Source: Acidobacteriota bacterium
Lineage (GTDB): Bacteria > Acidobacteriota > Blastocatellia > Chloracidobacteriales > JADJPF01
NCBI GenBank assembly: GCA_016213785.1
Contig: JACQZQ010000095.1
Span: 1-56,742, forward strand
Direction of reading: 5' to 3'
Length of the DNA: 56,742 bases
Below the pieces are notes generated by a model. It worked only from the letters and a program-made list of their open reading frames with translations, ran no database searches and was not told the origin of the DNA. Shown piece after piece: positions 12,021-27,617 of the stretch. Numbering within the stretch: the first letter of the stretch is position 1; each line of letters begins with the position of its first letter. The position numbers were made by a program, and so were the translations under genes.

Positions 12021-13184
12021 TTAGCCCATAGCTACTAAACTTGCTCCAGCACAGGGTGTTGCTAGATAAACTTCAGCTTTAACTCCAGTTTGTTTATAAT
12101 ATTGTTCTTTAATAGTTTCTGCTATAGTTTGTGCACTTTGTTTTTCTACTAAATTTACAGTGCAACCTCCAAACCCAGCGCCAGTTAAACGAGCGCCAAA
12201 AACTCCTTTTTGTTGACGAGCAATTTTTACCATTGTGTCAAGTTCTATAGAGCTAACTTCATAAAGTGATCTCAAACTCTCATGGGATTCATTCATTAAA
12301 ATACCTAATCCCGCTAAATCATCTCTTGCTGCTGCTTCTACTGCTGCTAAAACCCTAGCATTTTCACTAATTACATGTTTTGCTCGTTTAAATAGATAAA
12401 AAGGAAGCTGTTTTTCTGCTTGAGCAAGTTCTATTAAAGATACATCTCTAAAAGAGTTATAAGATTTTTTATGTATTTTGCCTAATTCAACAAGCATTTT
12501 ATTACATTCTGCTTTACGTTCATTATAAGCTGAATTACTTAACTCTCGTGATTTCATAGTATTACAAATTAAAATAGCAGCATTTTCAGGCAATAAAATA
12601 TATTCATAAGCTAAAGTAAAACAATCAATTAAAAGGGCGTGATTTGCTTTGGCTAAAGCAATAACAAAATGATCCATAATTCCGCTTTCCACGCCACAGA
12701 ATAGATTTTCTCCCTTTTGGCATAATTTAGCTAACTCAATTTTATCTAATTTTAAGCCACCTAGTGCTTCTACTAAAATCCCTGTAGCTACAAGTAGTGC
12801 TGCGGATGAAGAAAGTCCTGCTCCAATAGGTATATTTCCGCCTATTACCGCATTAAAGCCAGGAAAGGAATGTCTATTACGTTTAATTAAAGCAATTATG
12901 CTACGAGGATAATTATTCCAAGCCCCTAAACTATCAGGTCTTATATCAAAAAGTGAAAATTTTACTTCCTCATTCCCTTTATCTAAAGCAACTAGATTTA
13001 CTTGATCATCTATTCTAGGACTAGCTGCAATCATCACCTCATTACCAATTGCCATAGGCAAAACATAACCATTATTATAGTCAGTATGTTCACCAATTAA
13101 GTTAACCCGTCCAGGTGCACGAACTATTAGAGTAGGTTTATGTCTATAGATTTTTTCAAAAGCAGCTAAAATTTTTTCTTTCAT
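12021..13184 (-). CDS. galK: Galactokinase
   Basis: A GHMP-family kinase that phosphorylates alpha-D-galactose at C1 in the Leloir pathway. Signature motifs are all present: the galactose-binding 'GRVNLIGEHTDYNNG' (26-39), the ATP-binding 'GAGLSSSAAL' (121-130), the catalytic Asp171 in 'GIMDHF', and the C-terminal GHMP motif 'ARLTGAGFGG'. At 387 aa it has the normal length. Its ATG overlaps the stop of galT (ATGA), so the two are translationally coupled. It is cytoplasmic. galE and a galactose transporter are absent from the window. Confidence 0.96.
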   Translation of the reverse strand: MKEKILAAFEKIYRHKPTLIVRAPGRVNLIGEHTDYNNGYVLPMAIGNEVMIAASPRIDDQVNLVALDKGNEEVKFSLFDIRPDSLGAWNNYPRSIIALIKRNRHSFPGFNAVIGGNIPIGAGLSSSAALLVATGILVEALGGLKLDKIELAKLCQKGENLFCGVESGIMDHFVIALAKANHALLIDCFTLAYEYILLPENAAILICNTMKSRELSNSAYNERKAECNKMLVELGKIHKKSYNSFRDVSLIELAQAEKQLPFYLFKRAKHVISENARVLAAVEAAARDDLAGLGILMNESHESLRSLYEVSSIELDTMVKIARQQKGVFGARLTGAGFGGCTVNLVEKQSAQTIAETIKEQYYKQTGVKAEVYLATPCAGASLVAMG

Positions 13185-14275
13185 ACCATATTTTCCCCAC
13201 TAGTGTTTTTTCGTAATTCTTTTGCTTTTTCTTCTGCTTGAGAGTCATTAAGAAAAACTCCACAGCCTGCTTCTACTCCAGCTAAATATTTTAGTTTATC
13301 TTGAGTTCTATAAGGAGGATAAAATTCTATATGAAAATGGTAAAAGTCATAGTTTTTTCCATCAGTAGGTCTTTGGTGCATAAGCATTATGTAGGGAAAG
13401 GGCTTTTGCCAGAGCTTATCAAAACAGTCAAGTAACCCTTTTAGCAAACGAGCAAGTAAATTACACTCTTTGAAATTAAAATCTGTTATTGCACTAACAT
13501 GGCGTTTAGAATAAATATGTGTTTCATAAGGCCAACGAGCATAAAAAGGAATAAATGCTAAAAAAGCCTCATTTTCAATTACTATACGCTCTTGATGGGT
13601 AGTTTCTTTTTCTAGGATTTTACAAAATAAACACTCCTGATATTTTACCCAATGTTTTTCTACTGCTCTTAATTCACGTTCAGGAATTGGCGGTATAAAA
13701 GGAAAAGCATAAATTTGTCCATGCGGATGAGGCAAGGTTACTCCTATTTCACGTCCTTTATTTTCAAAAATATAAACATATTTAACATGTTCTTGTGCTC
13801 CAAGTTCTGCAAAACGATCTTTCCAAGCCTCTATTAAATTCTCAATTTCTAAAATAGATAAGTTAGCTAAAGTTGCCTGATGATCAGGAGAATAAACAAC
13901 TACTTCACATTCTCCTTGAGCCGAAGTATTTAAGTAAAAGTCATCTTTTATTGGCTCAACACAATTGGCTGTAAAAGCAGGAAATTTATTTTGAAATACA
14001 GCTACTTCATAATTTGCTAAAGGAATTTCTGTAATAAATTCGCCTTCTTTAGTTACACAAAGAGGACAAAAATTATCAGGAGGAAAAAAAGTTCGGCTCT
14101 GACGCTGTGTTGCAACTCCTACCCATTCTTCTAAGACTGGATTCCAACGAAGTTCGTTATTTATAGGGGAACTCTCTACTCCTAGATTATTTTCTAATAA
14201 ACTAACAGTAGTTGGTTTTTGCCAATATAAAATTAAATAACGTCCATCACTTTTTCTTAGATACTGTTTATACAT
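13181..14275 (-). CDS. galT: Galactose-1-phosphate uridylyltransferase
   Basis: A HIT-superfamily enzyme that exchanges UMP between UDP-glucose and galactose-1-phosphate. The active-site motif is His183-Pro-His185-Gly-Gln187 ('LPHPHGQIYAFP'), with His185 as the nucleophile. A structural zinc site is suggested by Cys70 and Cys73 ('FCPLC'), and the C-terminal 'HFHIEFYPP' is conserved. It lies 8 bp after the unknown 445-aa gene and overlaps galK by 4 bp. The start ATG lacks a clear ribosome binding site, which fits translational coupling to the preceding gene. It ends in TGA, showing TGA is an ordinary stop in this genome. Confidence 0.95.
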   Translation of the reverse strand: MYKQYLRKSDGRYLILYWQKPTTVSLLENNLGVESSPINNELRWNPVLEEWVGVATQRQSRTFFPPDNFCPLCVTKEGEFITEIPLANYEVAVFQNKFPAFTANCVEPIKDDFYLNTSAQGECEVVVYSPDHQATLANLSILEIENLIEAWKDRFAELGAQEHVKYVYIFENKGREIGVTLPHPHGQIYAFPFIPPIPERELRAVEKHWVKYQECLFCKILEKETTHQERIVIENEAFLAFIPFYARWPYETHIYSKRHVSAITDFNFKECNLLARLLKGLLDCFDKLWQKPFPYIMLMHQRPTDGKNYDFYHFHIEFYPPYRTQDKLKYLAGVEAGCGVFLNDSQAEEKAKELRKNTSGENMV

Positions 14276-26098: not shown

Positions 26099-26623
26099 AT
26101 GGCAAAACTAGATAACACTACACTAGAAAAAAGTGTCTCTGGAATAAATTTGCAAGGCGATACCTTACGTAAAGAATTAAAAATAACAAACTTAAATCTA
26201 TTAGTATTTTTACGTCACTTTGGATGACCTTTTTGCCGAGAAACTGTTAAAGATCTACGTCAACTAGCAAAAGATAAAAATTATCCTCCAATTTTATTTT
26301 TCGGGCAGGGTAGTGTTTTAGAAACAAAAGAATTCTTTGACAGTTTTTGGCCTGAGGCTAGGGCAGTCTCAGATAAGGAACATATCTTTTATCAGTCTTT
26401 TGGATTAAAACAAGCTACACTCTCTACAATGCTTACTCCTATTGCTTGGGTACGAGTGGCTCAAACAGCATTAAAGGGAAATTTCGTAGGCAAATTTGTA
26501 GGCGATATTTGGATGATGCCAGGAATTTTTTTAATAAAAAATGAAAACATTATTTGGCAACATGATTTTCAGCATGCTGGAGATCATCCAGACTTTGCAA
26601 AAATTCCACAACAAATAAAATAG
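26099..26623 (+). CDS. Peroxiredoxin-like (AhpC/TSA) protein, probable selenoprotein with in-frame TGA
   Basis: The frame runs 174 codons from the ATG at 26099 (AAGGA seven bases before) to the TAG at 26621, with one in-frame TGA at 26225-26227 (codon 43). The sequence around it is 'FLRHFG-TGA-PFCRET', exactly where relatives carry the redox-active Cys of 'HFGCPFCRE'. The remainder is intact: 'PPILFFGQGS', 'WPEARAVSD', 'KGNFVGKFVGD', 'WMMPGIFL' and 'HAGDHPDF'. TGA ends galT and other genes here, so it is not a reassigned sense codon. A U-x-x-C motif is expected in SelL/Prx-like2-type selenoproteins. A weak hairpin (CTGTT 26244-26248 with AACTAG 26262-26267) lies where a bacterial SECIS would be. 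The alternative is a nonsense mutation. Confidence 0.75.
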
Positions 26624-26654: not shown

Positions 26655-27617
26655 ATGAAAAACTATTGGGCAATTGCCATTGTTATAGTTATTAGCCTTA
26701 CCGTTTTCTTACCTAATTACTCATTAAAAAGCAATAATTTGACTAGTATGTTTACTAGCTCAGCTAATGATAACCCTAACGCAGCTAAACTAGAAGCTAA
26801 AACCTATGAGTTTGAAACCCTAACCCTTAACGCATCAGCAAAAGAAGTACGAAGAAATAAAGCTCAGGCAAGCTATTATAGTGAAGAGCTTGGTGATGGG
26901 GTTAAACTTGATATGGTAAAAATACCTGGTGGAGTATTTTTAATGGGTTCAGATGGGAAAGAACATGGGAGAAGTAAAAATGAAGGTCCCCAACATAAAG
27001 TAAAGATTTCTGATTTCTATATTGGTAAATTTGAAGTAACCCAAGCACAATGGAAAAACATAATGAGCGATAATCCTTCGCGTTATAAAGGGGATGATTT
27101 ACCTGTAGATAGTGTGTCTTGGGAAAATGCAATAAAATTCTGTCAAAGGTTATCAAAAATTACTGGTAGAGAATATAGACTCCCAAGCGAAGCAGAATGG
27201 GAATATGCCTGTCGTGCTGGTACAACAACCCCATTTGCCTTTGGCGAGACAATACTTTCAAACATCGTTAACTATGATGGAACTCCTTACCCTATAAAAT
27301 TAAATATTTTAGGCGCATATCGAGGAAAAACTTTACCTGTAGGTAGTTTTGGAATAGCAAACTCTTTTGGGCTTTATGATATGCATGGAAATGTTTGGGA
27401 ATGGTGTTTAGACCTCTATCATGATAACTACTCTAATGCTCCTACTAATGGTCAAGCCTGGGAAACTGGTACAGATTCTAAGCGGGTAGTTCGTGGAGGT
27501 AGTTTCTTTTTAAGCGCTTATATAAGCCGTTCTGCTTATCGTACTGGATATAACCCTGATGAATATTTAGATTGTTTTGGGTTTCGTGTAGTTTGTCTTC
27601 CAGATAAAGTCTACTAA
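26655..27617 (+). CDS. SUMF1/formylglycine-generating-enzyme-like domain protein
   Basis: A 320-aa protein with an N-terminal hydrophobic anchor or signal (5-23) and a full FGE-sulfatase (SUMF1) domain: 'MVKIPGGVFLMGSD', 'FYIGKFEVTQAQW', 'LPVDSVSWENAIKFCQ', 'YRLPSEAEWEYACRAGT', 'DMHGNVWEWC', 'RVVRGGSF' and 'FGFRVV'. True formylglycine-generating enzymes carry catalytic Cys residues just after the RGGS motif. Here that stretch ('RGGSFFLSAYISRSAYR') has none, so this is probably a non-catalytic or binding member. It lies 31 bp behind the putative selenoprotein and may share its transcript. Confidence 0.85.
   Translation: MKNYWAIAIVIVISLTVFLPNYSLKSNNLTSMFTSSANDNPNAAKLEAKTYEFETLTLNASAKEVRRNKAQASYYSEELGDGVKLDMVKIPGGVFLMGSDGKEHGRSKNEGPQHKVKISDFYIGKFEVTQAQWKNIMSDNPSRYKGDDLPVDSVSWENAIKFCQRLSKITGREYRLPSEAEWEYACRAGTTTPFAFGETILSNIVNYDGTPYPIKLNILGAYRGKTLPVGSFGIANSFGLYDMHGNVWEWCLDLYHDNYSNAPTNGQAWETGTDSKRVVRGGSFFLSAYISRSAYRTGYNPDEYLDCFGFRVVCLPDKVY

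Follow-up and report, generated by a model that had tools for sequence, protein, structure and literature searches.

A highly probable selenocysteine codon by descent, followed by a degraded SECIS hairpin, in a SelL-related redox gene of an acidobacterium

A peroxiredoxin-like gene in an Acidobacteriota genome is interrupted by a single in-frame TGA, placed exactly at the catalytic cysteine of an HFGCPFC motif. Does this codon specify selenocysteine, and is it still decoded? The gene lies in a contig stretch of 56,742 nucleotides, the whole of which is referred to here as the window. The features discussed below are the following.

26099..26623, plus strand: gene of a SelL-related/PRXL2 (AhpC-TSA_2) redox protein, 174 codons with one internal TGA, stop codon TAG
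26225..26227, plus strand: TGA, codon 43, very probably a selenocysteine codon by descent, the U of RHFGUPFC (homologue alignment and tree)
26234..26236, plus strand: TGC, Cys46, presumed from the family to be the resolving cysteine of the UxxC motif
26243..26260, plus strand: site of the orthologous SECIS hairpin, ACTGTTAAAGATCTACGT in the window and AGCGTAAAGGATTTACGC in orthologues, with 4 of 7 pairs left
26655..27617, plus strand: downstream gene with an FGE-sulfatase domain, a landmark that is syntenic in the sister species G001

The gene runs in one frame from ATG 26099 to the TAG at 26621-26623, and TGA at codon 43 is its sole interruption. The translation around this codon is ...LLVFLRHFGUPFCRETVKDLR..., and the 131 codons 3' of the UGA are free of stops and frameshifts in the window copy. 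An earlier note, made from the letters of the window alone, had the frame and coordinates right, and the good ribosome binding site it described was found as an AAGGAA-type sequence just 5' of the ATG. It also described TGA as a normal stop elsewhere in the window, with galT as the example. A galT-like ORF (13181-14275, minus strand) does end in TGA, but it is the only one to do so among 37 window ORFs of at least 180 amino acids, 27 of which end in TAA and nine in TAG. UGA is seldom used as a stop in this window, which has 34% GC. Standard annotation, taking UGA as a stop, would truncate the gene at this codon.

With U read as C, the protein exceeds the curated cut-off of the Pfam family AhpC-TSA_2 and reaches 136.4 bits with NCBIfam NF040769 (SelL-related redox protein; cut-off 120), covering nearly the full model; no NCBIfam peroxiredoxin equivalog attains its cut-off with it. 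An AlphaFold2 model built on 30 aligned relatives shows a confident peroxiredoxin-like fold (pLDDT 94.6, pTM 0.91), in which U43 and C46 are flanked by strand 32-37 and helix 44-56, the redox motif sitting where the helix begins. Human prostamide/prostaglandin F synthase (PRXL2B) is the best PDB match both by sequence (E 8e-5) and by fold (E 2.4e-7, TM-score 0.69), with PrxQ-type peroxiredoxins also among the best fold matches. The top PDB entry is the human enzyme mutated at both cysteines (C44S/C47S), and the Cys44 and Cys47 named in its title have the same spacing as U43 and C46 of the window protein. PRXL2B is, however, a cysteine enzyme with 20% identity to the window protein, and PrxQ/BCP peroxiredoxins share the overall fold at lower sequence similarity.

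SelL (selenoprotein L), after which NF040769 is named, is a Prx-like protein found in fish and in other organisms living in water. It contains two Sec residues, two apart (PMC3316567). A redox-active Sec in a UxxC/UxxU-type site is common to SelL and the SelL-related window protein. The two differ in that SelL has two Sec residues (UxxU) and a SECIS in the 3' UTR, whereas the window gene has a single TGA, giving one Sec and one Cys (UPFC), and a bacterial SECIS site inside the coding region. Lists of the prokaryotic selenoproteome include a peroxiredoxin-like selenoprotein of the AhpC/TSA family (cd02970/PF13911) with the motif UxxS (PMC13188914, PMC9312934), which shares with the window protein the Pfam family AhpC-TSA_2 and the position of Sec at the head of the motif; the listed motif UxxS differs from the UxxC of the window, and from the UxxP and UxxA of the homologues L044 and L061. 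The window protein is thus a member of a known selenoprotein family, SelL-related rather than SelL proper, which bears out the SelL/Prx-like2-type assignment of the earlier note. Since Sec-containing AhpC-TSA_2 proteins (UxxS) and SelL already stand in published inventories, the kind is known and the member is new. A literature search for 'SelL-related' found nothing.

The product would be a SelL-related/PRXL2 redox enzyme with a thioredoxin fold and with selenocysteine 43 as its nucleophile, which SelB and tRNA-Sec would insert at the UGA. By analogy with the family, Sec43 would be expected to react with a peroxide or disulfide substrate and Cys46 to act as the resolving thiol on the selenenyl intermediate, the cycle passing through a Se-S bond; a reductant of thioredoxin type would then regenerate the enzyme. 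In L044 (UVFP) and L061 (UTFA) the second cysteine of the motif is replaced; these are one-Sec types lacking a local resolving Cys and would need an outside thiol.

The genome is equipped for selenocysteine insertion. All four components that the earlier note proposed to look for, selA, selB, selC (tRNA-Sec) and selD, were found: SelA, SelB, SelD and a tRNA-Sec with anticodon TCA each pass the curated threshold. The SelD gene has an in-frame TGA of its own (CGGUASK) and is of the selenocysteine type. At least four Sec genes are present, namely the window gene, SelD and two paralogues of the window gene (L011:1501-1929 and L013:1501-1917) with the motif HFGULLC. L011 has a hydrophobic N-terminal segment, which suggests export or a membrane anchor.

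We surveyed 162 genomes of the class, found a match in 27 and checked 28 copies, the window copy included. The codon aligned to codon 43 is TGA or TGC/TGT in 28 of 28. In the TGA copies, TGA is the only stop within the aligned span, the exceptions being a pseudogene in G001 and one copy that reaches its own terminal stop. Five orthologues, related to the window genome at order or class level (G161, G013, G004, G156 and G012), have TGA, and those of seven genomes of the genus g5 have TGC/TGT; both sets are 46-51% identical to the window protein. TGA occupies codon 43 also in the two paralogues of the same genome and in 11 more remote homologues, which belong to three further families. The Cys copies are nested inside the Sec clade on the tree (support 100/98 and 99/94), and the tree accordingly places the Cys form as derived within that clade. 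The exchange of Cys and Sec among homologues that had been put forward as a check thus occurs at exactly this codon, and TGA 26225-26227 can be regarded with high confidence as a selenocysteine codon by descent. The g5 genomes with Cys copies keep selA. Their loci (L040, L041, L043, L045, L047, L048 and L049, from G005-G011) mark a genus where Sec has been replaced by Cys and SelD has no TGA, as in its family f2; TGA is absent from SelD in 10 of 10 f2 genomes tested and present in all other families tested.

The signal expected downstream of such a codon is clear in the orthologues. The five Sec orthologues contain a near-identical hairpin, GCGUAAAGGAUUUACGC (with GCGUAAUGG in one of them), 16 nt past the TGA. 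Where the amino acid is conserved, codons are identical in all five orthologues at five of five columns in the hairpin and at 1 of 38 elsewhere (p = 6e-6), and this concentration of codon identity indicates that the hairpin RNA itself has been under selection. In the GC-rich orthologues a hairpin search alone is not significant (0.06-0.17), and the evidence there is codon identity. Of the seven pairs, Sec orthologues form six or seven, Cys copies three to five, and the window copy four. The window gene encodes VKDLR unchanged, as GTT AAA GAT CTA CGT, and has lost its pairs mostly through synonymous changes.

The weak stem-loop 17-40 nt downstream that the earlier note offered as a SECIS did not hold up. 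The minimum free energy of the 51 nt from the window TGA is -5.1 kcal/mol, no lower than expected by chance (z = -0.16). We searched for hairpins with our own implementation of the published bacterial SECIS loop and spacing rules, rather than with bSECISearch, over a range of 16-37 nt. The best SECIS-like hairpin of the window gene reaches -0.4 kcal/mol, which 40% of synonymous recodings equal or better, and no hairpin in the window copy conforms to the bacterial rules, whereas those of the orthologues and of the genome's three other Sec genes conform to them or come close. The same search gives -8.3, -7.2 and -5.8 kcal/mol (0.3%, 1.3% and 2% of recodings) for the two paralogues and SelD, whose hairpins have the loop AGUU in common. 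A hairpin of -8.6 kcal/mol in a 50-nt window was rejected, as it lies about 50 nt or more past the UGA, outside the range. Wider stretches of the window gene are no more structured than synonymous recodings. Plain free energy against recodings separates even good SECIS genes poorly, and the SECIS argument rests therefore on the constrained hairpin search, the identity of synonymous codons and the pair counts. By these measures the ancestral SECIS is clear in the orthologues and degraded in the window copy. The review that gives the bacterial rules states that some selenoprotein genes do not conform to them.

The absence of a credible SECIS in the window copy makes present-day decoding uncertain. 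The comparison closest to hand is one genome, the fragmented 840-contig assembly of G001, the only other genome of the genus. Its syntenic copy (L010:1501-1755) is a pseudogene that keeps the TGA but contains two TAG codons and is about 100 residues short at its C-terminus, next to a conserved FGE-sulfatase gene. We scored the residues at consensus columns, defined by agreement among four or more of the five Sec orthologues. After the UGA the window protein keeps 17 of 18 and the G001 copy 9 of 18 (p = 0.007); before it they keep 13 and 14 of 17, with no difference. The ratio of divergence after the UGA to divergence before it is 0.84 in the window copy, the lowest of six Sec copies, and shows no rise. 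Synonymous divergence between the window and G001 is about 0.66; synonymous sites are saturated against the distant orthologues, and dN/dS against these was not used. The 17 retained residues and the unraised divergence argue that the part after the UGA has been selected as protein in the window lineage since its split from G001, despite the weakening of the hairpin. On this evidence, either decoding goes on with a weak signal or its loss is very recent. Because the protein after the UGA remains constrained, we consider it rather probable that the codon is still decoded today, at some level, via the weakened signal. Given the weakened signal, loss of the gene has probably begun and is still at an early stage. 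A bolder reading, to which we give somewhat less than even odds, is that UGA is decoded as Sec though the canonical SECIS is gone, SelB accepting a minimal or non-standard signal in this one of the genome's Sec genes.

The main competitor to decoding through a weakened signal is a variant of it that differs in present function. The gene would be a recently dead selenoprotein gene, with an ancestral Sec and a decayed SECIS, at which SelB is inactive and translation ends with residue 42; the recency of the loss alone would then account for the intact remainder of the frame. The number of pairs left in the window is one also seen among Cys copies, good hairpins exist in the genome's other Sec genes, and the sister copy is a pseudogene, all of which suits a dead gene. 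An open frame of 131 codons past the UGA, the retention of 17 of 18 consensus residues across a synonymous distance of about 0.66 from G001 and divergence no faster after the UGA than before speak against it, and we hold it less probable than continued decoding. Readthrough by other means, in which a suppressor or near-cognate tRNA supplies Cys, Trp or some different amino acid, would explain constraint past the UGA with no need of a SECIS, but UGA terminates the galT-like ORF, a dedicated tRNA-Sec is encoded in the genome, and the clear SECIS of the orthologues makes Sec the ancestral reading; such readthrough is very improbable. A chance nonsense mutation or sequencing error, though a single base change would make TGA from TGT or TGC, can be dismissed for practical purposes, given TGA at codon 43 in 18 intact homologues of several families, orthologues and two paralogues of the same genome among them, and given the derived position of the Cys form.

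Bacterial selenoprotein loss is as a rule inferred only in retrospect. Within one class, the continued or recently ended use of selenocysteine proposed for the window gene falls into a run of successive states: five genomes have Sec and an intact SECIS, the window has Sec and an intact protein but a decayed SECIS, the sister species has a broken gene, and a genus that retains selA has Cys in place of Sec. The case gains interest from having SECIS decay, a pseudogene and the change from Sec to Cys side by side in a single bacterial class. A 2026 review describes documented bacterial Sec-to-Cys substitutions as rare and mainly confined to FdhA and SelD (PMC13188914), which makes the g5 replacement a useful extra case. 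If decoding does continue, the window gene would test the minimum signal that SelB requires.
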